Origin: Salinibacter sp. 10B
GTDB lineage: Bacteria > Bacteroidota > Rhodothermia > Rhodothermales > Salinibacteraceae
DNA: 64,000 nucleotides
Assembly (NCBI RefSeq): GCF_002954405.1
Contig: NZ_MQWC01000005.1
Span: 186,001 to 250,000 of the forward strand
Direction of reading: 5' to 3'
Within the stretch, counting starts at the first letter, position 1, and every line of letters starts with the position of its first letter. Positions 5,180 to 20,483 of this stretch are shown here, one piece after another. The notes under the pieces are model-generated. The model saw nothing but the letters and a program-made list of their open reading frames with translations. It made no database searches and had not been told where the DNA came from. The position numbers were made by a program, and so were the translations under genes.

Positions 5180-6559
5180 TCACGGGAGGCGACGGAGCAA
5201 TGCCCGGGCGCGATCGTCTCCGCTTTCATGCCGTCGTTCCAATGCGGCGCGGGCCTTGTCGTACCCTTGCTCGGCCGCCTGGTAATACCACCGCCGAGCA
5301 TTGGCCTCATCTTTTGGACGGCCCCGGCCGCTTTCGTAGACGAGCCCGAGCCGAAACTGTCCTTCGGCGAGTCCCTGCTTGGCGGCCCGTTCGTAAAGGT
5401 CGGCCGCTCGCGCATCGTCCTGGCGACGTCCCCCAAATCCCCCACTGTACATTCCCCCGAGGAAATACTGGGCCTTTGCGTGGCCGCGCATTGACGCGAG
5501 TTGAAACCAATCGGCTGCTTTCTCTGGATCTTCTGAAACCCCGCGTCCTGCCAGATACATCGTGCCGAGATAATACTGGGAATCCATATGCCCAGCCCGT
5601 GCCGCCTTTCGAAGCAGGGGAAGGGCCGATGCATAGTCCTTGCGGTTGTAGTAAGAGCGGCCGTCGCGGACCCACCGCTCCACTTCTCCTGCCGACACAG
5701 CAGTAATGGGATTGTCGGGCTCACTTCCCGCTTCGGGGTCGGTAAAGTAAAACGGGAGAACATAGGAGGCCGAAAGCCACGGGCTCTGTGCCTGATTGCT
5801 CGCTTCGCGGACACGACGAGTGACCCGACGCATCATCTCCGCAGCCTCGATTCCAGGGCGCTCCAGCTCCGCCAGAAGCGCCTTGGTGAAAAGCCCATTG
5901 CGTCCCTCCACGTTATCGCTCGCAACGGCACCCGGCGCCGTCCCATATACCACCAGGGTTCCCCCCATCATGTCCCCCGAGGGAATGGCCCACCCCCCTC
6001 CGGCCCCTTCCCCTGTGACATTGTCCGGGAACGGATTGCTTCGGCAGGCATCGAGAACGATCACCTGATTGGTGGCACGGCTCAGCGCGCGAAGAACCTC
6101 TTCAAGAGGAACGGCCTCTTGATCGATGCGGAAATCACCGCCCTCAAGATCAGCGACGTCCACCGGAACGAGATAATTTTCCCCCTTCACCTCTACCCCG
6201 TGCCCCGCGTAGAACAGGAGTGCCACCTCGGCCCCCTTTGCTTTTTTCGCAAAAGCCCGAACCGCCTCATACATGTTTGCACGGGACTGATCCAGCCGTT
6301 TGATGACATCGAACCCGAGGCGCTGAAGTGCCGCGGACATGTCCTCGGCATCGTGAACCGTGTTCTGCAACGGCGAGATCGAGGTGTATTCCGCGTTACC
6401 GAGTACGAGAGCAACGCGCCCTTCTCCGGGCTCGGTCGATGCGATGGTTACGCCGCGGCCATCCTCGATCTGCCCACGGACCGCGGGCACACAAAGAGAT
6501 AGCGGCACCACCAGCCAAAGTAACACCAGGACCCGGGGGCTCCGGAAGGATTCGACCAT
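5180..6559 (-). CDS. Exported caspase-family protease with Sel1 repeats
   Basis: I choose the ATG at 6559 because it places a standard signal peptide (LVLLWLVVPLSLCVPAVRG) at the N-terminus; the frame is open 30 codons further upstream. The 459-residue product has a caspase (peptidase C14) domain at about 47-300. It begins RVALVLGNAEYT and carries the catalytic His in YAGHGVE (His120) and Cys in LDACRSNP (Cys172). Three to four Sel1-like repeats follow (about 340-455; AGHMDSQYYLG, RGHAKAQYFLG, QGLAEGQFRLG). Sel1 repeats usually bind protein partners. The catalytic pair is intact, so it is a probable active cysteine protease acting outside the cytoplasm. Family members normally cleave after Arg/Lys or Asp; specificity cannot be read here. 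Confidence 0.88.
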   Translation of the reverse strand: MVESFRSPRVLVLLWLVVPLSLCVPAVRGQIEDGRGVTIASTEPGEGRVALVLGNAEYTSISPLQNTVHDAEDMSAALQRLGFDVIKRLDQSRANMYEAVRAFAKKAKGAEVALLFYAGHGVEVKGENYLVPVDVADLEGGDFRIDQEAVPLEEVLRALSRATNQVIVLDACRSNPFPDNVTGEGAGGGWAIPSGDMMGGTLVVYGTAPGAVASDNVEGRNGLFTKALLAELERPGIEAAEMMRRVTRRVREASNQAQSPWLSASYVLPFYFTDPEAGSEPDNPITAVSAGEVERWVRDGRSYYNRKDYASALPLLRKAARAGHMDSQYYLGTMYLAGRGVSEDPEKAADWFQLASMRGHAKAQYFLGGMYSGGFGGRRQDDARAADLYERAAKQGLAEGQFRLGLVYESGRGRPKDEANARRWYYQAAEQGYDKARAALERRHESGDDRARALLRRLP

Positions 6560-7627: not shown

Positions 7628-10021
7628 TCATGGAGCACTGATCATGGGCGCGCGATTGAGCGACCAATCAGTGGGAACAGACTGACTGAATCCTCGCGTC
7701 CCATCTCCCGTGTTCAAGAACAGCCGGGCCAACGCCGTATCCTCCCTCGGACCACGGTTCCCACTCGTGCCTCGCGGTGTGCCTTGGAAATTGAAGACGC
7801 CGCGGGGATCGGTGATCGGCTCTGCCGTCGTCAGCAGAAAAAACGTGTCGACGTCTGGACGCCCGTCCCCGTCCCCATCCGTGCTTGTGAAGAGAGAGCC
7901 GGAACCCGGAATCGTGAAGCGTATCGGATCCGGAATGTCGTCCAGAAGATCTATGTCGTTTTCGACATTCTCGCCCCCGTAGAGCAGATAGCCATCACCC
8001 TGACGAGTAATGGCGAATAGATAGAGGTGTCGGAGCGCCCTGTAGGCAAAGCTCGACTTGACCGCCTGAAGCGCTGCCGAGTCTGCCGCGACAACCGCAC
8101 GATAGCGGTGCTGCCAGCGCAGCGTGTCGTCGAGTGCCACAAAGGCACCGCTATCTGCGTCTTCGAAGCCAATGAGGCGGTACGGAAAGCTTCCGTCGGG
8201 GGGCGGGCTTTCAAGCTGTATCCAGCCCCATACGCGATTCAACCGTTTCGCGTATTCCGCTAGTTGTGCTGCTGCGGCCGTGGGATTGCTTGCAGCGACA
8301 GGGGCAACGCTCGGCGGCATGGCTGGTGAACCGCCGGACTCGGTGGCGGGAGCATAGATCCATCCATAATCCAGCCTCGCTGAGACGCCTCGTCCCCCCC
8401 GTCCGACAAGCACGTAGTGGGCCGCCGTCCCCTTGCTGGTAACCTCAATACTCCCCCCATCGCTCAGCGCAGCCTGCAACGCCTCACGGAGAGCAGGTGG
8501 GGGAGGAAAGTGGACATAGAGGCGGACCTCCTCCGCCCCGCGCAAGACCCTACGTGCGACCTCTACGTCCGGCAAGGGACCGCCAAGTTCCACTGCGACG
8601 TCGCCGCCATCCGTGAGCATCCACGTCCTGCCGGTCCACTGCACCACGTGCGTCGGTGGCGTAACCGTAGGATCGCCCACAAGCCTCACGTGTTCTTCAG
8701 TGTCGAGGGCAGCAATGCTCTCAGTCGCAGGCAGGATTCGGGCTGTCGGTAGGGCTGGAGGCATCCACATGCGCAGAGGAGCCGCAGGGCTTCCAACCCA
8801 GCGCGTCACGGTCATCATTTGTCCTGGACTGAGCTCTGCGGCCGCGCCTCTCGTCACCGTTGCTTCTGATCGGGCCAGCCCCTCCACCCTCTTCACCGTC
8901 ACGCAGAGCGTCGTATCAGGGGCCCGGACGCGTTCGTCGCGCACAGCACACAACTCGCAGTCGGGACGCAGCCCGAGGGCAAGTCCTCCCTGTAGGATGA
9001 CCGTTCGGCCCTCCGTCTCAATTACGGCGACCTGGGGACTCGAACGAACCTGTCCACGCGTAGCCCCACCAAAGAGGGGACCGGAGAGACGGACGGACTG
9101 ACCTGCAAGGACTGGCTCCTGTGCAAAGCCGTGTCCCTTCATTCGCGCTCTCACTCGTGTAAATACGTCACGTGCAGGCGTGTCCGGCGCTGCGGTCCGC
9201 AGCACTGAGGCCAGCGCCCAGCTAAAGGCACCGTGTGGCGTTCCGTCCCCATCTTTCAGCTCTTTCGCCAGTTCGTTGTCCTGCGCTGCTGAGATCACAA
9301 GGGCAGCGGGATGGTCCTGCGGTGGAGGGGGAAGAGCCCCTCCGTCGCTAATGACCTCCGAACTCGGCTTCAGGCTACGGGCCTTACCAGGCGTGACTCC
9401 CCGCGTGACGGAGCCGCTGTGGCAACTATCAAAGAGAATCGTCACCTCGGCCCCCGTCGCAAGTAGTTCTTGGAAGAGCACCCGCAACTCCTTGTCCCGG
9501 ATGTCAGGCACACCGAGGCGTGCGTCGGCGGGGACAATGGACTCGTCCCGCCCATCGGCCTCCTTGGACTCGGTATTTCGGACTTGCGAGCCGTGACCCG
9601 CATACATGAAGACGACGGCGTCGCCCGGGCCAGACTCCACAATCAGGTCGCGCAGAGCCTGCAGAATCCCCTCCCGCGTCGCATCAGTGTTAAGGAGAAG
9701 ACGGACCTCTTCTTCGTCGAAGCCAAATCGCGTAGTCAAGAGCGCACTAAGGGCGCGGGCATCGTTAACGGCCCCATCGAGATCAGTCCATCCTCGCACG
9801 CTCCCCCGCTCGGCTTGCTCCGTCGATGCATCTCGGCTTGCGAGGACCGTCCCCTGCTGTGCCTCCGCCGTGTACGTATCAATGCCGATGAGGAGGGCGC
9901 GGCGGACCTGGGCCCGAGTATCCATCGGTGAAAATACACACAGTGCCGCCAATCCCCCCAGCGCGACCCCTAAGCCCACGGTTCGAAGCAGAGCAACTGT
10001 AATGAATCGGAACGGCATCAT
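7628..10021 (-). CDS. Exported metacaspase-like cysteine protease
   Basis: The ATG at 10021 gives 797 residues; a GTG lies four codons upstream. A signal anchor or signal peptide (TVGLGVALGGLAALCVF, then DTRAQ) precedes a caspase/metacaspase domain at about 38-330. That domain has RALLIGIDTY, the catalytic His in MYAGHGSQV (about His143) and Cys in LFDSCHSGS (about Cys200). The DGRDE acidic block between them is typical of type I metacaspases. The long C-terminal part has no confident domain; its end (RHLYLFAI, YLLYGGENVEN, TTAEPITDP) resembles the DUF4384-like tails seen on other bacterial caspase proteins. It is the first gene of the leftward arm and faces the sigma factor gene across a 580-bp intergenic region. 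Confidence 0.88.
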   Translation of the reverse strand: MMPFRFITVALLRTVGLGVALGGLAALCVFSPMDTRAQVRRALLIGIDTYTAEAQQGTVLASRDASTEQAERGSVRGWTDLDGAVNDARALSALLTTRFGFDEEEVRLLLNTDATREGILQALRDLIVESGPGDAVVFMYAGHGSQVRNTESKEADGRDESIVPADARLGVPDIRDKELRVLFQELLATGAEVTILFDSCHSGSVTRGVTPGKARSLKPSSEVISDGGALPPPPQDHPAALVISAAQDNELAKELKDGDGTPHGAFSWALASVLRTAAPDTPARDVFTRVRARMKGHGFAQEPVLAGQSVRLSGPLFGGATRGQVRSSPQVAVIETEGRTVILQGGLALGLRPDCELCAVRDERVRAPDTTLCVTVKRVEGLARSEATVTRGAAAELSPGQMMTVTRWVGSPAAPLRMWMPPALPTARILPATESIAALDTEEHVRLVGDPTVTPPTHVVQWTGRTWMLTDGGDVAVELGGPLPDVEVARRVLRGAEEVRLYVHFPPPPALREALQAALSDGGSIEVTSKGTAAHYVLVGRGGRGVSARLDYGWIYAPATESGGSPAMPPSVAPVAASNPTAAAAQLAEYAKRLNRVWGWIQLESPPPDGSFPYRLIGFEDADSGAFVALDDTLRWQHRYRAVVAADSAALQAVKSSFAYRALRHLYLFAITRQGDGYLLYGGENVENDIDLLDDIPDPIRFTIPGSGSLFTSTDGDGDGRPDVDTFFLLTTAEPITDPRGVFNFQGTPRGTSGNRGPREDTALARLFLNTGDGTRGFSQSVPTDWSLNRAPMISAP

Positions 10022-12255: not shown

Positions 12256-14310
12256 ATGCCCTCCACGATGAAATCCCTCCTTGTTCTGCTTCGATCACTC
12301 TCCCCAGGACGGCTCGCAGGACCTCTATCTATGGCCGTACTGCTTCTGATTACTGGCCTCCTCGGATGCGAAGAGGCCCCTAATGATTCGTTCCCCTACA
12401 CGTCGGCAGGCCCGACAGATACATCTCTCATCACGTCCGCGACGGACACGACGAAGGGCCTCCCTGACAATCTGTATCACCGTCCCGACGAAGAGGCAAA
12501 TTTCGCGAGCAAGGGAGCCACAAAGTCAGCCATTCCCTCCTCAGACATCGCCGAAATCCAGGCCGGCGTTCCGATCCGAGGCGTCATTGGGGACAGCGAC
12601 CCCACCCTTCGGGACGGCTCACGGTTCGATGGATGGGTGTACCGCGGTCAGGCAGGGGAAACGATTGACATTCAGATGCGGTCGACGGTGCTAGATGCAT
12701 ACCTCATTCTGGCTCGGTATAGCACCGGGGGGGTTCGGTCCATTGCTAGAGACGACGACGGCGGGGGTGGCACCAACGCCCGCCTCCGCGGGGACCTGCC
12801 ATCAACCGGCGTTTACCTCATTCTCGCAAACACAGCAGGCCCGGAGGGTCGTGGCTCCTACGAGCTTCTTCTTCGCTCCTCACGCGAGAGCACTGGTGCG
12901 TCGACCCGTCCGGACGAGTCGTTTCCAGCAATCTCCGTAGGTGAAACTGTGGAGGGTACTCTTGACGCTGGCGATACCCGACTGGCCTCAGGCGCCTACG
13001 TTGACGTGTATCAGTTTACTGGACGCGCCGGACAGCCGGTCGTCATAGACGTGGTCTCGACAGAGATCGATCCGCTCATAGGCCTTCTGGTACGGACCGA
13101 GAGCGGCCGGCTCGCCACTGTCGCTCGGGACGACGACAGCGGGGAGGCGCGCAATGCCCGGCTCGCCCTGAACCTTCCCCTCTCGGCGACCTATGCCGTG
13201 TGGATTGGCGCCCAAAACAGTCAGCCGGCTATTGGAGCCTATACGGTCCGCATAGGCAGTGAGACTTCCGAGTCCGATGCAGACGCGCCAGAGAGCACTC
13301 TCTTCGTCGATCGCTTGCCAACGGAGGATGGTATCGACTATGCCGAACACTATCCAGGAGATGGGGACCCAAGGGGGCGCTACGCCCTCCTCGTCGGTAT
13401 TGACGACTACCCCGGCGATGAGAACGATCTACCAAGCTCCGTCGCCGATGCGACGCTGATGAAGCAGGCGCTGATCGACGTGTACGGCTTCGAGGAAGAC
13501 AATATTGTTGTCCTCACCGACGGAGCAGCCACGCGGGAGCACATCCTTCACGCGTTTGTCCGGCATCTCGGGCAGGCCGGACCAGAGGGCGCAGCCGTCT
13601 TTTACTTCTCCGGTCATGGCCTGCAGGTGGGCGACAACGTTGCCCTGACGGGTGCGAACGATCCAGAAGAGGACATGAACGACGAGTCCATCGCCGTGTG
13701 GAGCGCGCCGCCGGGGCAAGGGGGGCGAGGAAGCGTGATTCTCGATGACGAGCTTGGGATCCTCGCCCGAGAACTTCCTACCGACCGAGCACTCATGATC
13801 CTGGACGCCTGCCACTCCGGGACTGGAACCCGGGGGCCTTCCGGCGATCATCCCATCAAGGAGCTCCGATGGGAAAATGTGGCGACCACCTACATCCTCC
13901 CTTCCACCCAGGCTACCGTGACGGCCCTCGCTAAAGGCCCCCTTTTGGAGACGACGGGCCAGCCTGCTCGGAGCGAGGGACATCGCTCGGCAACCGGCGC
14001 CGGAGAGATCGTGGCAGGCCCGACGGATCACGTTCTTCTGGCCGCCGCTGCCGCCAATGAGGTCGCACTGGCAAGTAGTCGGGAATGGCCGACGAAGGAC
14101 GAGTCGACGGTGCGGGGAAGTGTCTTTACTTATTTCCTGACCCAGACGATGGCTGATCTCGGCCCCGGGGCGAGCCTGGAGGCGCTTATGAACCAGGTTC
14201 GCACCTTCACGGTTAACTACAGCCGCAGCCGTGCCGGTTTCACCCAAACGCCGCAGCTGGAGGGGCAGGGCGGCACGCAGCCCCTCGATGCCTTCCTTGG
14301 AGCTAAGTAG
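12256..14310 (+). CDS. Caspase lipoprotein with two PPC domains
   Basis: 684 residues. A hydrophobic N-terminus ends in the lipobox GLLGC (Cys38), predicting a lipid anchor. Two PPC-type beta-sandwich domains lie at about 100-210 and 225-335. Both contain the signature of low-charge beta strands around an RDDD turn (SIARDDDGG and TVARDDDSG). A caspase (C14) domain occupies about 374-680. It begins RYALLVGIDDYPG and has the catalytic His in YFSGHGLQV (His454) and Cys in LDACHSGTG (Cys519), so it is predicted active. It is the third exported caspase of the island and the distal gene of the sigma-factor operon. Unlike the other two it is membrane tethered. The substrate is unknown. Confidence 0.88.
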   Translation: MPSTMKSLLVLLRSLSPGRLAGPLSMAVLLLITGLLGCEEAPNDSFPYTSAGPTDTSLITSATDTTKGLPDNLYHRPDEEANFASKGATKSAIPSSDIAEIQAGVPIRGVIGDSDPTLRDGSRFDGWVYRGQAGETIDIQMRSTVLDAYLILARYSTGGVRSIARDDDGGGGTNARLRGDLPSTGVYLILANTAGPEGRGSYELLLRSSRESTGASTRPDESFPAISVGETVEGTLDAGDTRLASGAYVDVYQFTGRAGQPVVIDVVSTEIDPLIGLLVRTESGRLATVARDDDSGEARNARLALNLPLSATYAVWIGAQNSQPAIGAYTVRIGSETSESDADAPESTLFVDRLPTEDGIDYAEHYPGDGDPRGRYALLVGIDDYPGDENDLPSSVADATLMKQALIDVYGFEEDNIVVLTDGAATREHILHAFVRHLGQAGPEGAAVFYFSGHGLQVGDNVALTGANDPEEDMNDESIAVWSAPPGQGGRGSVILDDELGILARELPTDRALMILDACHSGTGTRGPSGDHPIKELRWENVATTYILPSTQATVTALAKGPLLETTGQPARSEGHRSATGAGEIVAGPTDHVLLAAAAANEVALASSREWPTKDESTVRGSVFTYFLTQTMADLGPGASLEALMNQVRTFTVNYSRSRAGFTQTPQLEGQGGTQPLDAFLGAK

Positions 14311-14617: not shown

Positions 14618-15985
14618 TCATCCCTCAGGAAGCTCAGGGTCCGCCTGCGGGACGCGGACGGCCACGTGGGTACCCCGTCCCTTTTCGGTTTCAACCTCCA
14701 CCTTTGCGCCGAGCGCGTCTGCGAGTTTCTTCACGATCGTGAGGCCGAGGCCGACGCCCTCGTGCTCTCGATTCAGTCCCTCGGACTCCTGTTTAAACCC
14801 CTTAAAGAGCATTGGAACCTCCTCAGGATCCATTCCAATTCCGGTGTCTTCCACCTCCAGGATCGCCTCGTCCAGCTCCTCCCGTACCCGAATTTCCACT
14901 CGTCCCCCCTCGGGCGTAAATTTGATTGCGTTCTCCAGGAGGTTTTCCGCAATGTGATTCAACACCTCCTGATTTCCGAAAGCCACCACGGGACTCTCAG
15001 GAGCGTCGGTCTCCAGGTCAATCTGCTTTTTCTCTGCCTCCGGAGCAAGAATCTCTACGGCCCATTCCATAACCTTTTTGAGACGAACGGGTCGTCGGTC
15101 CAGATTTTGGGGTTCAGACTCCAGCTTTGAGAGCTCCAGAACCGAGTTGATGGTCTTCATCAGATACTGCCCCGAGTGGTAGATCTTCTCGGCGTGGGCT
15201 TTGGGCGCCCCCTCTAGAAGTTGGGTCAGAATTTTCGAGAAGCCGATAATCGACGTGATGGGAGTGCGAACCTCGTGACTCACATTTGTAAGCAGCGCGT
15301 CCTTGAGCCTACTGGCCTCCTCAGCTTCTTGCTTCGCCTTCTTGAGCTTCTCTTCCCGGCGCTTTCGCTCGGTAATGTCTCGGAAGATGCCAACAAAGAG
15401 CTCCTCGCCCTCAACCCCGACGAAGGAAGCGTTGATCTCAACAGGAATCCGGCGCCCCTTGTCGGACACGACATAGATCTGCGATCCGTCATCCAATGTG
15501 CTCAAGGTGGCTGCCTCCTCCTGGGCCGCTTCCTTATGTCGCTCGAAGAGCGCCTTGTATTTCTCCAGCTCTTCGGGGGGATGGAGTTCCGATTGGTGAC
15601 GGCCAACGAGGTCGTCTACGGTTGTGTCGAACAGGGTAGCGGCGGCCCGATTGGCGTCAATGATTTTTCCCGAGGAGCTATCTGCAATGAAGACGGCGTC
15701 AGGCGCTCCTTCCAGAAGAGCGTCATACTTTTGCTGGAGAAGGTCGCTCGAAGTCTCCTGCACGTCCTCGCCCTTGGTGGATTCGATGTGTCTTGAGCGG
15801 GTGGGGGCCGATCGGATATTCCTTTCTGGACCTGTTTCGTGAACCGTAGCCGTGAGTCTCTCGACAGAATGGCGGAGCGACAAAAGAAAGAGCAAAAGGC
15901 GGGCCCTAGCGCAGACATTCTGTGCTTCCGGAGAGGAGACTGTGGGCCCGCTCCTTAGCGAATGGGGGACCTCTTCTCGATTCAT
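14618..15985 (-). CDS. PAS-domain histidine kinase
   Basis: 455 residues. There is no obvious transmembrane helix beyond a weak hydrophobic patch at 29-37, so it is probably a soluble sensor kinase. A PAS domain (about 85-205: GAPDAVFIADSSSG, NRAAATLF, IFRDITERK) is followed by a helical linker. Then comes a HisKA domain with the phosphoacceptor in NVSHEVRTPITS (His237), and an HATPase_c domain with the N box (AENLLENAIKFTPEGG), a G1 box (EVEDTGIGMD) and a G2 box (GVGLGLTIVKKL). It would autophosphorylate in response to a PAS signal. No response regulator is adjacent. It lies downstream of the Roadblock/protoglobin/ParA genes on the same strand, 360 bp away, so it may belong to the same pathway but probably has its own promoter. 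Confidence 0.88.
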   Translation of the reverse strand: MNREEVPHSLRSGPTVSSPEAQNVCARARLLLFLLSLRHSVERLTATVHETGPERNIRSAPTRSRHIESTKGEDVQETSSDLLQQKYDALLEGAPDAVFIADSSSGKIIDANRAAATLFDTTVDDLVGRHQSELHPPEELEKYKALFERHKEAAQEEAATLSTLDDGSQIYVVSDKGRRIPVEINASFVGVEGEELFVGIFRDITERKRREEKLKKAKQEAEEASRLKDALLTNVSHEVRTPITSIIGFSKILTQLLEGAPKAHAEKIYHSGQYLMKTINSVLELSKLESEPQNLDRRPVRLKKVMEWAVEILAPEAEKKQIDLETDAPESPVVAFGNQEVLNHIAENLLENAIKFTPEGGRVEIRVREELDEAILEVEDTGIGMDPEEVPMLFKGFKQESEGLNREHEGVGLGLTIVKKLADALGAKVEVETEKGRGTHVAVRVPQADPELPEG

Positions 15986-16345
15986 CGTCTCTGTTGGGTA
16001 GCCAATACGTGATAAGAGATTACGGGCGGGACAACGATGGAAGAAAATCGTCAGGGGGCGTTCTATTCAACTCGGAAGCCAGAGAACCTGGCCCCTCCCG
16101 GCACACTGGTGGGAGATCTCCCCTCTTTGGATGTCTCCTCGTTGGGCGCGGCCTCTGGAGCGGCACTCGCCTCGGAGAAGACAATGGATCCTTTCTCTTT
16201 GGAAATGCCCTGGGCGCTTTTACCCTCAGGGCATAGCCTCCCTTGACGATCTCGTCCTCGCAGTTCTGAGAACCGGGGGTTCAAAAGTCGGCAAGGTCGT
16301 GGGAGGATGGACCTCAAAGAGGGTCAGAGAGATTATTTCGCCCAA
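15986..16345. other. Intergenic region upstream of the kinase gene
   Basis: This 360-bp spacer presumably carries the kinase promoter and the 3' end of the Roadblock operon. No gene or clear terminator is seen. Confidence 0.4.
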
Positions 16346-16738
16346 TTAAGCCTCCTCACCCGGCGGCCCCACCGCGTCGAGAGAAAGCTCTTGTCCGATC
16401 GATTTTAGATGGGTGCGGGCGAGAGGAAGGCTGCCCTGCTCTTGCTCGAGAATGAGATACGCAAAGACGCTTTCGTCAACCGGAAGGAGGCGAATCAGAT
16501 GATACTGGTTTTCCATCGTGAGAAGCGCCTCCACTGGCGACTCGTCAAGCTCGAGCTGCTGGATGATGTCGGTTTTGGCCCGGACGATTTTTATCGCGCT
16601 CGCGCCAGCGAGCTCCATGTCTAGCCAACCGCCCCCCTTTGTCCCCAGGCACGTGCCAGTCTCATAGTTGACGAGGGCCGTCCCAAGAGCCCCGTCAATC
16701 GACATCGCTTTGTCCAAAAACTCCTGAATATTAGCCAT
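16346..16738 (-). CDS. Roadblock/LC7-family protein
   Basis: 130 residues from the ATG at 16738; the frame is open upstream but only this start gives a family-like N-terminus. The pattern IQEFLDKAMSIDGALGTALVNYETG, the central GGWLDMELAGASAIK and the strand YHLIRLL...FAYLILEQE fit the alpha-beta Roadblock/LC7 fold. The family includes MglB-type GTPase activators and other dimeric scaffolds that partner with small GTPases or ParA-like switches. It is the last gene of a run with protoglobin, another Roadblock protein and a ParA ATPase. No Ras-like GTPase is nearby, so the partner may be the ParA protein or the globin. The fold assignment is moderately sure; the role is inferred. Confidence 0.7.
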   Translation of the reverse strand: MANIQEFLDKAMSIDGALGTALVNYETGTCLGTKGGGWLDMELAGASAIKIVRAKTDIIQQLELDESPVEALLTMENQYHLIRLLPVDESVFAYLILEQEQGSLPLARTHLKSIGQELSLDAVGPPGEEA

Positions 16739-16821
16739 TAAGTGACAATATATTTCTACTGAATCCAGTCGAGCAAAAGCGACAAAAAAGCCTCCCCCCT
16801 TCGGATCTTCGGAGGACCCGC

Positions 16822-17382
16822 TTACTTCGAAGCCCCTCCCGTCAACAGACGTCGGGCTAGGCGCTCCCCTCCGACCAGTTCGGCTAGATGCTCGAGTTGT
16901 CTGTCTTCGTAGGCCTGGTTGAAAATGGCAATATCCAAGGAAAGAAGCTTCTGAAAGGCACTCATTGCCTTCTCCGGCTCGGGGCTCTCTTCGACCACTT
17001 CCTCGCCGTGCTCCATGATGACGTCGATCATCGACAATGGGTAGCGCACCGGCAGTCCAATTCGGACGTGAACGTGACCAATCTCCAGCCGGTCCGCGAC
17101 GTACTCCGCGTCGTACGTCCCGCCAAAGAGATCGACAAACCACGGGGCCACGAAGTCGTGATTGTCTGTATCCAGTCCCTCGAAGTACTCGGCCGTGTTT
17201 TCGTGGGCCATGAGCCGACCGTAAAAGTCGTCCGTCATCGCGTCAGCCTGCTCCTCCGCCACGTCTTTCAGATCGGCCAAGAGGTTCTTTTCCTCTTCTG
17301 TGATCTCCATCAATTCGGAGAGTTCCTCGTGAATGTTCTCGTTCTTGACAGACCAGCTCTTTCGTTCTTCGTAGTCTTCCAT
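16822..17382 (-). CDS. Protoglobin-type heme sensor domain protein
   Basis: The ATG at 17382 gives 186 residues, about the size of a single protoglobin domain; upstream codons in the frame look non-coding. The helical pattern is that of globin-coupled sensors: ADAMTDDFYGRLMAHENTAEYF, then APWFVDLFGGTY, then the proximal-His block IGHVHVRIGLP (second His, residue 105) followed by YPLSMIDVI. It probably binds heme and a diatomic gas such as O2, NO or CO. There is no attached output domain, so signalling must go through another protein. The two Roadblock proteins on either side and the ParA ATPase upstream are the natural candidates. Confidence 0.85.
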   Translation of the reverse strand: MEDYEERKSWSVKNENIHEELSELMEITEEEKNLLADLKDVAEEQADAMTDDFYGRLMAHENTAEYFEGLDTDNHDFVAPWFVDLFGGTYDAEYVADRLEIGHVHVRIGLPVRYPLSMIDVIMEHGEEVVEESPEPEKAMSAFQKLLSLDIAIFNQAYEDRQLEHLAELVGGERLARRLLTGGASK

Positions 17383-17497
17383 TGGTTTTGCTGTATTGGG
17401 ATAGAATAGAAACTGCAGTGGAATAATCGGTTCGGGGGCGATCGCCCCGCGTCCGGAATCTTGTCCGCACAGCCAGCTTTTCTTCATGCTGCCTGCA

Positions 17498-17884
17498 CTA
17501 GGTGGCACTCGCAGATGGATCGGAGAGTAACGTTTCAACCTCGTCGGTAGCCCGCCGGGCCTGCAGATTGATCATTCCAACGTTGGCGTCGGCCCCTGCC
17601 ACGACGGCCAGCACGGCCTCCTCGCCTGCCCGGTAGAGGAAGACGCTGCGCTCGGTCCCCTTGATACTGGTCTCTTCCACCTCTCCGGCCGAGAGGGTCG
17701 AAGACATCCGCTCGCTCACACCAGTAGTTGTGGCCACCATGGCGGCAATCTCCTCAGCGTCCTCTCCTTGCAGCGTGTCGGTAATGACGAATCCGTCCTG
17801 AGATGCAATTACTGTCCCGATGACGCTCGGAACCTCGCTCTCGAGGGTTCCGAGCGTGGACTCGATATTTTCGATGGTTGACAT
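17498..17884 (-). CDS. Roadblock/LC7-family protein
   Basis: 128 residues from the ATG at 17884. The motifs VIGTVIASQDGFVITDTL, EEIAAMVATTTGVSERM and SVFLYRAGEEAVLAVVAGADANVGMINLQARRA are classic Roadblock/LC7 features: a beta-hairpin, a long helix, then two strands and a helix. This copy is closer to MglB-like family members than the one at 16346-16738. Such proteins act as dimeric regulators of nucleotide switches and of cell polarity. It is 115 bp upstream of the protoglobin gene and 88 bp downstream of the acidic protein gene, all on the minus strand, consistent with one operon. Confidence 0.82.
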   Translation of the reverse strand: MSTIENIESTLGTLESEVPSVIGTVIASQDGFVITDTLQGEDAEEIAAMVATTTGVSERMSSTLSAGEVEETSIKGTERSVFLYRAGEEAVLAVVAGADANVGMINLQARRATDEVETLLSDPSASAT

Positions 17885-17972
17885 GTCGAAGTGCTTGTTG
17901 TGTGAGAGTGAACGTGTATTGCTTGCAGTTTGCAAAATCAGCTCTTATTGAGCGGCGCTGTGTAGCGGGGAC

Positions 17973-18476
17973 TCATCCCTTTCGCGCCCGCCGAAGCACA
18001 AAGGCGATGGACATCCTATCGACCTCCCCTCCTTCGTCATTCCGGAGCTCTACGCGATCGAGGGTCCATCCCTGCTCAAATGCGGCGTTGAGCACAGTCA
18101 AGCGCCCTTCTGAGGCCCCCTCCGCCGAGCGAGTCACCACGCGCGTGTCTCCGTCCCTGCCGAATTTGAAGCGGTCGCCCGAATCCTCGAATACACTCGG
18201 ATCAGTGGTTTCACCGACCCGACTGGCTTCGCCCGTTTCAACGAGAGAGCGGCTTTCAGCGTCAGCGTCTTCGCCGTCGACGGCCGCGCCCTCGTCGGTC
18301 GACTCGTCGGCGTGAGTCTCGGGGTCGACATCGCCAGTGCTGTCGTCCTCCTCACCGGCGCCTTCGTCGGAAGGGGGAGCCAATGGATCGTCCTGAAGAA
18401 GGGGATCATCTTTTCGTGAACCGAAGGGGGCCATCGTGAAGGAGAAAACCTGTGGCGAGAGATTGACGGGAGACAT
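17973..18476 (-). CDS. Highly acidic protein of unknown function
   Basis: 167 residues, or 153 if the ATG at 18434 is used. The first about 100 residues are extremely acidic and disordered (EEDDSTGDVDPE and similar), as is common in salt-in halophiles. The C-terminal about 60 residues form a compact segment (RLTVLNAAFEQGWTLDRVELR, then MSIAFVLRRARKG), probably one alpha/beta unit. No family is recognised. It starts only 9 bp after the ParA gene ends, so the two are almost certainly translated from one mRNA. It could be a ParA adaptor, but that is a guess from position. Confidence 0.65.
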   Translation of the reverse strand: MSPVNLSPQVFSFTMAPFGSRKDDPLLQDDPLAPPSDEGAGEEDDSTGDVDPETHADESTDEGAAVDGEDADAESRSLVETGEASRVGETTDPSVFEDSGDRFKFGRDGDTRVVTRSAEGASEGRLTVLNAAFEQGWTLDRVELRNDEGGEVDRMSIAFVLRRARKG

Positions 18477-18485
18477 GCGCCGGGC

Positions 18486-19370
18486 TTACGCTTTGCTCGC
18501 CGCCGAGACACCGTTGCTTGAAGCACTGCTGTTTGCCTGGGCACCAGTTGCCTGGACGCTGCCGTTCTCTCCTCCGTTCATAAGATCCCCATAGACCGAG
18601 TTGTACTGCTGAAGTCGCCGCTCGATCTCGTCGATCACGCGATCGTAGTCTTGGGCAGCCGTCGAGTCGGAGGCGTATTGGAAGATGTCCTTGTTTCGGT
18701 TCTGCGCCTCGTCGACAGCCGGGTCCCGACGAATCTCCGTCTCGAAGACTTTTCCTCCGTAGTGATCGCGGACCTTTTGGATAGACTCGGGCACCTCGCC
18801 TTCGCTCCGATCCACCATCGTGAGAAGCACGCCCAGAATGGGCGCCGCTTCCCCGAGGCCCCGTCGCACACGCCGCACCGTCTTGCCAAGGCTCACAACC
18901 CCCTCCAGCGCCAGGTACGAAGGGGCCACAGGAATAATGAAGGCGTCGGCCGCCACCAGCGAACAGACCGAGAGGATTGAGGTCGAGGGGGCACAGTCGA
19001 TCAAGATCGTCTGGTACCGATCCTCTACCGTCGAAAGCACCTCTCGAAGCCGGTACTGTCCCCGCTCTTGCTCCTTGAGTCGCACGTCGGCATTGGCCAG
19101 TTCAAGGGATCCAGTAATCAGGTCTACCCCCTCGAGGCTGGTTGACCGGATCGCTTCTTCGACGGGTGTTTTGCCGAAGAGAACCTCCGCAGAGGAAGGC
19201 TTCAGATCGTTTTGTCCGACACCGAGGGAAAGGGAGGCCGATCCCTGACTGTCCAGGTCCACCAACAGAACACGGCGGCCGCGGCGCGCCAGTCCGGCGG
19301 CGACGTTGACGGTGGTCGTCGTCTTTCCGACGCCCCCCTTGTTGTTGATTACCGGAATGGTCTTAAGCAT
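18486..19370 (-). CDS. ParA/Soj-type ATPase
   Basis: 294 residues from the ATG at 19370. The deviant Walker A motif NNKGGVGKTTTTVN is at residues 9-22, the Walker A' motif VDLDSQGSAS near 39, and the switch motif ILIDCAPSTS near 120. The body matches the ParA/Soj family to about residue 255, and the tail is a low-complexity Ser/Asn/Ala region. ParA proteins form ATP-dependent dimers on DNA and position chromosomes, plasmids or protein clusters. No ParB or parS is seen beside it; the neighbours are Roadblock proteins and a protoglobin. It is therefore more likely an orphan ParA used to position a signalling cluster than a segregation protein. It is the first gene of this operon. Confidence 0.87.
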   Translation of the reverse strand: MLKTIPVINNKGGVGKTTTTVNVAAGLARRGRRVLLVDLDSQGSASLSLGVGQNDLKPSSAEVLFGKTPVEEAIRSTSLEGVDLITGSLELANADVRLKEQERGQYRLREVLSTVEDRYQTILIDCAPSTSILSVCSLVAADAFIIPVAPSYLALEGVVSLGKTVRRVRRGLGEAAPILGVLLTMVDRSEGEVPESIQKVRDHYGGKVFETEIRRDPAVDEAQNRNKDIFQYASDSTAAQDYDRVIDEIERRLQQYNSVYGDLMNGGENGSVQATGAQANSSASSNGVSAASKA

Positions 19371-19736: not shown

Positions 19737-19745
19737 GTGGGTAAT
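19727..19745 (+). promoter_or_regulatory. Perfect 7-bp palindrome over the repressor start codon
   Basis: ATTACCC at 19727-19733 and GGGTAAT at 19739-19745 are exact inverted repeats separated by CAAGT. The dyad spans the GTG start codon (19737) of the HTH-S24 regulator. The size and spacing suit a dimeric helix-turn-helix operator, and the position suggests autorepression or a block on translation. Confidence 0.5.
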
Positions 19746-20483
19746 ACTGAAAAGTACGTAACGGGAGACCGCTTCCGTCGAATTGCCGAGGAAATGTTCG
19801 ACGGAAACGCCAGTGAACTGGCCCGAGCCCTGGCTATGCAGCCCTCGAGCTTCTATAAGTATCTAAACGGAGAGCGACAACCCGGCGCATCGGTTCTTCG
19901 GCGCCTTACCCAGCTGGGTGTTGACCTGCACTGGTTTCTGACCGGAAGCGGATCGATGGTGCGCGACAACTCCCACCTTAATACGCTTCCTCCCGTTGAT
20001 AGCACGGAGACTCAACGCAAAGGGACCCAGCGCCAAGAGACTCCCGACGTTGAGGTCTCTGATCAAACGCCCCATCGCGTGATGCTCACCCGCGTCGTTG
20101 TAGAGGAGGACGGAAGCCCCCGCCTCAAAGACATCGAAATTGAAGAGTGGCTTAGCGAGTCCCTGATTCGACAAACCTACGGCGTCGACCCCTCGATACT
20201 GCGGGTCTTTCGAGTCTCGGGCGACGCAATGAAGGAGATTCTCTGTCCTGGAGACCGCATTCGCGCAGCCCTCTGGCAGGGGGAAGCGCTGACCGACGGT
20301 TCGATCTATTTGTTCTACCAAGATCCTGGTGGGGTCCTGGTTCGTCGGGTCTGGATCGACGGGAGCCAGGTCCGGCTTGTCGCGGAGCATTCTGAGGTGC
20401 CAGCCCGCACCCTCGAGACCGGTTCTTGGTCCAATGATTTCCGCCCAATAGCCCGGGTCCTGGAAGTGATTCGACCGTTGTGA
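19737..20483 (+). CDS. HTH-S24 type repressor lacking the protease dyad
   Basis: 248 residues from a GTG start. An XRE-type helix-turn-helix lies at about 8-60 (FRRIAEEMFDGNASELARALAM, SSFYKYLNGERQP). A polar linker (about 80-115) leads to a C-terminal domain resembling LexA/CI S24 peptidases (about 145-245). In that family the nucleophile sits in GDSM and the general base in VKR. Here the equivalents read SGDAM (Ala164) and LVRRV (Arg203), so both catalytic residues appear replaced. The protein should still dimerise and bind DNA but not cleave itself, so release would need another signal. It is divergent from the ParA operon and may control it. A palindrome over its own start codon is a likely operator. 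Confidence 0.82.
   Translation: MGNTEKYVTGDRFRRIAEEMFDGNASELARALAMQPSSFYKYLNGERQPGASVLRRLTQLGVDLHWFLTGSGSMVRDNSHLNTLPPVDSTETQRKGTQRQETPDVEVSDQTPHRVMLTRVVVEEDGSPRLKDIEIEEWLSESLIRQTYGVDPSILRVFRVSGDAMKEILCPGDRIRAALWQGEALTDGSIYLFYQDPGGVLVRRVWIDGSQVRLVAEHSEVPARTLETGSWSNDFRPIARVLEVIRPL

Follow-up and report, generated by a model that had tools for sequence, protein, structure and literature searches.

What does a heme globin do between two Roadblock proteins in an operon headed by a ParA-type ATPase? This question is raised by a 64,000-nt stretch of Salinibacter sp. 10B DNA (the window), in which genes for a ParA, an acidic protein, Roadblock 1, a protoglobin, Roadblock 2 and a PAS histidine kinase all lie on the minus strand, at the positions given in a first-pass annotation of the sequence. 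That annotation proposed a gas-responsive spatial switch and named co-occurrence of the four genes in relatives as one check. Our comparison demonstrated that the four-gene set is rare (complete in 1 of 100 relatives), but that its two halves occur more widely. The set splits into module A (Roadblock, protoglobin and MglA-family small GTPase, in most cases accompanied by a PATAN/DUF4388 protein) and module B (ParA, acidic protein and Roadblock 2, a set that occurs in relatives lacking the globin), each of which is conserved on its own; here, module A lies inside module B. Judged from sequence and by analogy with known systems, the protoglobin is, on balance, probably the heme gas-sensing subunit of the Roadblock/small-GTPase switch of module A. 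Numbered labels beginning with L denote loci, and those beginning with G denote relatives' genomes.

Features of the locus (coordinates, strand, description):
18486..19370, minus: orphan ParA-type ATPase, module B (AAA_31, E value 4.6e-49; Walker A KGGVGKTT)
17973..18434, minus: acidic adaptor-like protein, module B (no Pfam match; 26% Asp/Glu)
17498..17884, minus: Roadblock 1, MglB-like, module A (PF03259, 7.4e-18)
17383..17497, minus: gap of 115 bp between Roadblock 1 and globin; small GTPase gene absent
16822..17382, minus: single-domain protoglobin, module A (PF11563, 8e-32)
16346..16738, minus: Roadblock 2, putative divergent member of the Roadblock family, module B (fold match to Roadblock/MglB; profile matches of relatives)
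14618..15985, minus: PAS histidine kinase (PAS, HisKA and HATPase_c, Pfam)
19737..20483, plus: divergent repressor-like gene, helix-turn-helix/S24 peptidase type (Pfam Peptidase_S24, 3.6e-6)

The protoglobin and module A

The 186-amino acid globin matched the protoglobin family at 110.9 bits against a cut-off of 25, and its structurally solved relatives include 2w31, 8h17 and 5ohe. It consists of one domain and carries no fused output domain of the kind that defines globin-coupled sensors. The proximal histidine, H105, aligned to the histidine of VHVRIGLP in the globin-coupled kinase 5ohe and was kept in 46 of 46 relatives and in all 7 outgroup protoglobins; the distal Tyr54 was kept in 45 of the 46. 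The annotation of a single-domain heme globin with an intact proximal histidine was thus confirmed. Two conserved segments, an N-terminal Ser-Trp and a C-terminal GGERLARRLL-type stretch, were specific to this globin clade and absent from other protoglobins, as would be expected of a docking surface.

A scan with a single globin sequence had found nothing, whereas a profile scan with the globin alignment yielded 33 loci. These were mostly from Chloroflexota, with single records from Verrucomicrobia and from a Halothece and a Gracilibacteria metagenome-assembled genome (MAG), the latter two being possibly misbinned. A Roadblock gene adjoined the globin in 25 of the 33 loci, and a GTPase gene was present in about 21, usually with PATAN/DUF4388. 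The common orders were Roadblock-globin-PATAN-GTPase and PATAN-GTPase-Roadblock-globin. All measured globin-Roadblock pairs lay on the same strand, most of them 3–230 bp apart, and the two proteins were encoded by separate genes in all loci.

The pairing is not due to chance. When a PF11563 search of 150 Chloroflexota genomes was crossed with PF03259, 7 of 12 protoglobins (from six genomes) lay within 2 kb of a Roadblock gene against 0.07 expected (P about 1e-13, the true strength being lower because related genomes are not independent). Among 30 protoglobin loci, a Roadblock or GTPase/PATAN gene was found within 1.5 kb in five of the six belonging to this clade and in none of the 24 others. 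These results demonstrate that globin, Roadblock and MglA-family GTPase genes travel together.

Most module A GTPases keep the P-loop and the GTPGQ motif, the exceptions being those of L041 (an Anaerolineales MAG), L058 and L059 (both from the phylum of the window but another family). These three loci show a related arrangement with several Roadblock genes and a PATAN/DUF4388-Roadblock fusion adjoining the globin (L041, 7257-7973, by Pfam; L058, 9559-10275, and L059, 6969-7679, by profile). Roadblock-globin pairs without a GTPase gene were also found at L017, L020, L039 and L042, and the window is therefore not unique in lacking one.

Tandem duplicated globin or globin-PATAN-GTPase units were observed in the Chloroflexota loci L015, L022, L026 and L036, suggesting paired sensors. 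In two relatives (L082, 7579-11342; L083, 4109-7871), a large kinase follows Roadblock-GTPase and no globin is present, as though one sensor had been swapped for another; the L082 kinase is multi-PAS by Pfam and that of L083 by inspection.

Roadblock 1 and Roadblock 2

The globin was annotated as lying between two Roadblock proteins, and this placement holds with unequal certainty for the two. Roadblock 1 passed PF03259 at 64.5 bits (cut-off, 23). It carries Asp30-Gly31, the Asp-Gly pair that marks MglB proteins coupled to MglA Groups 2-5, and Asp-Gly occupies a constant position in most globin-linked Roadblocks. Roadblock 2 did not match PF03259, its best Pfam hit being LAMTOR5 at 0.034, and its relative L128 likewise gave no match. 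Its best Foldseek matches in the Protein Data Bank were Roadblock, MglB and LAMTOR chains, with E values from 7e-4 for a low-confidence model (predicted local distance difference test score, pLDDT, of 56), and its relatives matched the Roadblock profile at E values of 5e-5 to 6e-3. Since a profile-profile comparison with Roadblock 1 gave nothing, Roadblock 2 is graded only as a probable divergent Roadblock protein.

ParA and module B

Of 60 relatives, 10 had a ParA of the module B type, in most cases with no globin, and the genome of the window itself has five copies. Four close paralogues of the window ParA are chromosomal, as are its closest relatives. Homologues of the acidic protein were found beside most ParA paralogue loci. 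This protein has a conserved N-terminal FGSRxxDPLLQxDPL (DDPLL-type) peptide, an acidic middle part modelled with low confidence and a small alpha/beta C-terminal domain; only the C-terminal block was modelled as well folded (residues 91-130, pLDDT 86–93), and a fold search with this domain returned no significant match.

Homologues of Roadblock 2 were located at 20 sites, distributed over 8 of 196 relatives. ParA lay nearby at G016:C2, G009:C6, G022:C157 and G032:C239 as well as at the two composite loci (window and G016), that is, 7–8 of about 19 against 0.15 expected; the other homologues adjoin GAF kinases or unrelated genes. Across 60 genomes, ParA and Roadblock 2 were both present in 7, one without the other in 1 and 3, and both absent in 49 (P 2e-6, ignoring shared ancestry). 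Because ParA adjoins Roadblock 2 in loci without globin, ParA is genuinely associated with a Roadblock gene, but that gene is Roadblock 2. One of these loci, L146 (G032:C239), is from another family of the order and has a divergent ParA between two Roadblock 2 genes.

The divergent S24-type repressor, which was not found beside other ParA paralogues, is likely the operon regulator. By sequence reading, it has Arg at the position expected for the catalytic Lys and may not self-cleave.

The genome measures 4.75 Mb, and the contig that contains the window is 287 kb long. This contig is probably a plasmid because rep-like, relaxase-like and ParA/ribbon-helix-helix (RHH) genes, named by inspection rather than by family search, lie near its end. 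In this setting, the operon could serve ordinary plasmid partition and carry accessory genes, and plasmid ParA proteins share about 33% identity with the window ParA. No ParB_N protein was found on the 287 kb contig, however, and the sole genomic ParB_N is chromosomal and lies beside its own ParA (parS sites were not searched). The window ParA thus lacks the ParB_N partner of a ParABS system, in agreement with its annotation as an orphan ParA. Furthermore, a second ParA with an adjacent RHH protein is found about 65 kb away on the contig, near the rep genes, and the nearest relatives of the window ParA are chromosomal. Given the lack of ParB and the separate ParA/RHH pair near rep, a plasmid partition role for the window ParA was rejected, and a partition operon is highly improbable.

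Sister loci and the missing GTPase

Among the 100 relatives, the globin was found in just one other genome, G016, and a second copy is present on the chromosome of the same genome as the window. It was absent from 12 genomes of the same genus and was not found on known plasmids. The chromosomal locus (L006) has the order Roadblock-GTPase-globin. The G016 locus (L007), the only other one where ParA and globin occur together, is a full composite operon in which a repressor precedes ParA-acidic protein-Roadblock 1-GTPase-globin-Roadblock 2. The window order is that of L007 minus the GTPase. Identities between the window and L007 were 67% for ParA, 62% for Roadblock 2, 41% for the acidic protein and 38% for the repressor, which occupies the same divergent position. 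The open reading frame that follows the chromosomal globin at L006 8870-9274 was examined as a candidate Roadblock 2 and rejected.

Both L006 and L007 hold the small GTPase gene between Roadblock 1 and globin, and no trace of a GTPase remnant was detected in the corresponding 115 bp gap of the window. A GTPase with P-loop and GTPGQ beside a Roadblock, as in the Group 2-5 MglA/MglB systems, is found in L006 and L007 as well as in the Chloroflexota loci and is missing from the window; the single GTPase of the MglA-family type in the whole genome is that of L006. In the globin tree, the window and G016 copies were sisters (support 99/69), and the chromosomal copy joined them next (100/99). This topology fits the formation of the composite operon in a common ancestor of the window and G016 copies, followed by loss of the GTPase on the plasmid.

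Neighboring genes

The PAS kinase annotated further on was confirmed by its PAS, HisKA and HATPase_c domains. It lies about 360 bp past Roadblock 2 and is not found in L007 or in L006, and its membership in the operon is uncertain. In G014, a different PAS kinase follows Roadblock-GTPase. Three clustered proteins with caspase domains (Peptidase_C14) adjoin the operon at window positions 5180-6559, 7628-9925 and 12331-14310, one of them with Sel1 repeats. A search for anti-phage defence families gave only weak overlaps in ATPase and kinase domains.

Proposed mechanism and alternative explanations

The globin and Roadblock genes are not paired by chance, and Roadblock proteins act as regulators of nucleotide switches. 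The obvious interpretation is therefore a gas-responsive switch, and this part of the first-pass proposal is supported. The switch that travels with the globin, however, is an MglA-family GTPase and not ParA. In the proposed mechanism, the globin would bind a diatomic gas, most likely oxygen (O2), at the His105/Tyr54 pocket and change its shape. The altered globin would act on the Roadblock dimer, which would change GTP hydrolysis or exchange on the GTPase, such that the gas level would set the ON/OFF state. In the window, the globin/Roadblock 1 pair might act on the single chromosomal GTPase, from the paralogous Roadblock-GTPase-globin operon, or feed Roadblock 2 and ParA. These steps are modelled on MglA/MglB, RomY (PMC9481161) and the HGbRL fusion (PMC4476040). 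Since module A sits inside module B, co-expression of the two modules is probable and may be controlled by the divergent S24-type repressor.

Some observations weigh against a sensor subunit of a GTPase switch. Eight of the 33 globin loci lack an adjacent Roadblock (one of these, L024, being at the end of its contig), a GTPase is missing from the window copy, whose function may thus be altered or decaying, and the globin could be an O2 or nitric oxide handling protein that is merely co-regulated. Such a handling protein, co-expressed with a signalling operon, would be in line with the frequent enzyme or carrier roles of single-domain globins that lack an output domain. It would account poorly for a clade-specific, strand-consistent Roadblock neighborhood in distant lineages and for the clade-specific termini, and we consider it decidedly improbable. 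Decay would imply that module A was inserted into module B in an ancestor and that the plasmid copy, having lost its GTPase, is a passenger on its way out, with no functional tie between globin and ParA. The patchy presence of the globin, including its absence from the same-genus genomes, the missing GTPase and the complete paralogous copy on the chromosome are compatible with this history. The remaining window genes, however, have unbroken reading frames and normal codon use and keep the heme and Asp-Gly residues, and GTPase-less Roadblock-globin pairs occur elsewhere; a decayed cassette is therefore unlikely.

The other part of the first-pass proposal was that the gas state of the globin passes through Roadblock 1 and Roadblock 2 to ParA and changes the positioning of a nucleoid or polar cargo. 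Gas-controlled positioning is conceivable because ParA is itself linked to Roadblock 2 at loci that lack the globin (G009, G016:C2, G022 and G032), and the correlated presence of the two across genomes points in the same direction. Both loci with ParA and globin keep the same order, the window ParA has no ParB, and the GTPase-less window copy would be the purest case of such a switch. On the other hand, only these two loci are known, ParA and the acidic protein mostly occur without either Roadblock or globin, and we know of no case of a Roadblock protein regulating a ParA-type ATPase. The spatial switch is accordingly a tentative and rather doubtful explanation. Similarly speculative is the broader idea of a gas-controlled bacterial Ras-like switch, in which Roadblock/small-GTPase modules of several lineages would be regulated in a ligand-gated manner by a dedicated protoglobin clade, with the same heme signal wired here to ParA positioning via two Roadblocks.

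Comparison with known systems

The closest precedent for a globin acting through a Roadblock is HGbRL of Methylacidiphilum, in which a heme globin is physically coupled to a Roadblock/LC7 domain and a heme-to-Roadblock signal was proposed; the same genome encodes an MglA-MglB-like pair elsewhere (PMC4476040). HGbRL differs in that its globin is HGbI/flavohemoglobin-like and lacks helix D, and in being a one-protein fusion reported as unique to Methylacidiphilum (PMC4476040). Here, a protoglobin is encoded by a separate gene, relatives have an adjacent GTPase, and several lineages are involved. The MglA/MglB polarity module and MglA Groups 2-5 share with module A a Roadblock beside a GTPGQ small GTPase, Asp-Gly in the Roadblock and an occasional PATAN neighbor; GTPases with two Roadblocks each and systems whose GTPase gene was lost have also been described (Wuichet and Sogaard-Andersen, 2014; PMC4316618). 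The word globin appears nowhere in that paper, and the window copy has no GTPase. In the two-part GTPase-activating protein (GAP) complex MglB/RomY, RomY tunes the GAP activity of the Roadblock, which is the role proposed here for the globin, but neither heme nor a ligand input is described for RomY (PMC9481161). The Streptomyces conservon, with histidine kinase, Roadblock, CvnC and GTPase in a row, does not match the window, which has neither a GTPase nor a CvnC-like neighbor.

Open-licence papers, beyond which a report may exist, contained none pairing protoglobin with Roadblock or DUF4388 with Roadblock, and those on protoglobin and GTPase appeared unrelated by title and abstract. Coupling of a globin to a Roadblock is already known once, as a fusion, as are Roadblock-GTPase-PATAN neighborhoods. 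The protoglobin as a standing module member and its nesting in a ParA operon are apparently new, with no description found in this literature.

Globin-coupled sensors and other protoglobins (the 5ohe kinase, the 2w31 globin and Tlr1989, 8h17) belong to the same family and have the same heme pocket, but in sensors such as the 5ohe kinase the output domain is part of the same protein, whereas the likely output here is encoded by a neighboring gene. The inputs of bacterial small GTPases are mostly unknown, and a conserved heme protein encoded with a Roadblock regulator is a concrete candidate for a ligand input. In orphan ParA positioning systems of the McdA/McdB type, whose adaptor binds ParA and activates it, a ParA without ParB is likewise encoded next to a small adaptor-like protein. 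The acidic protein of the window is only adaptor-like and is not assigned to McdB, and the Roadblock is an added part. The locus illustrates how a single operon can combine a GTPase module with one for ATPase-based positioning, the element shared by both being Roadblock proteins.

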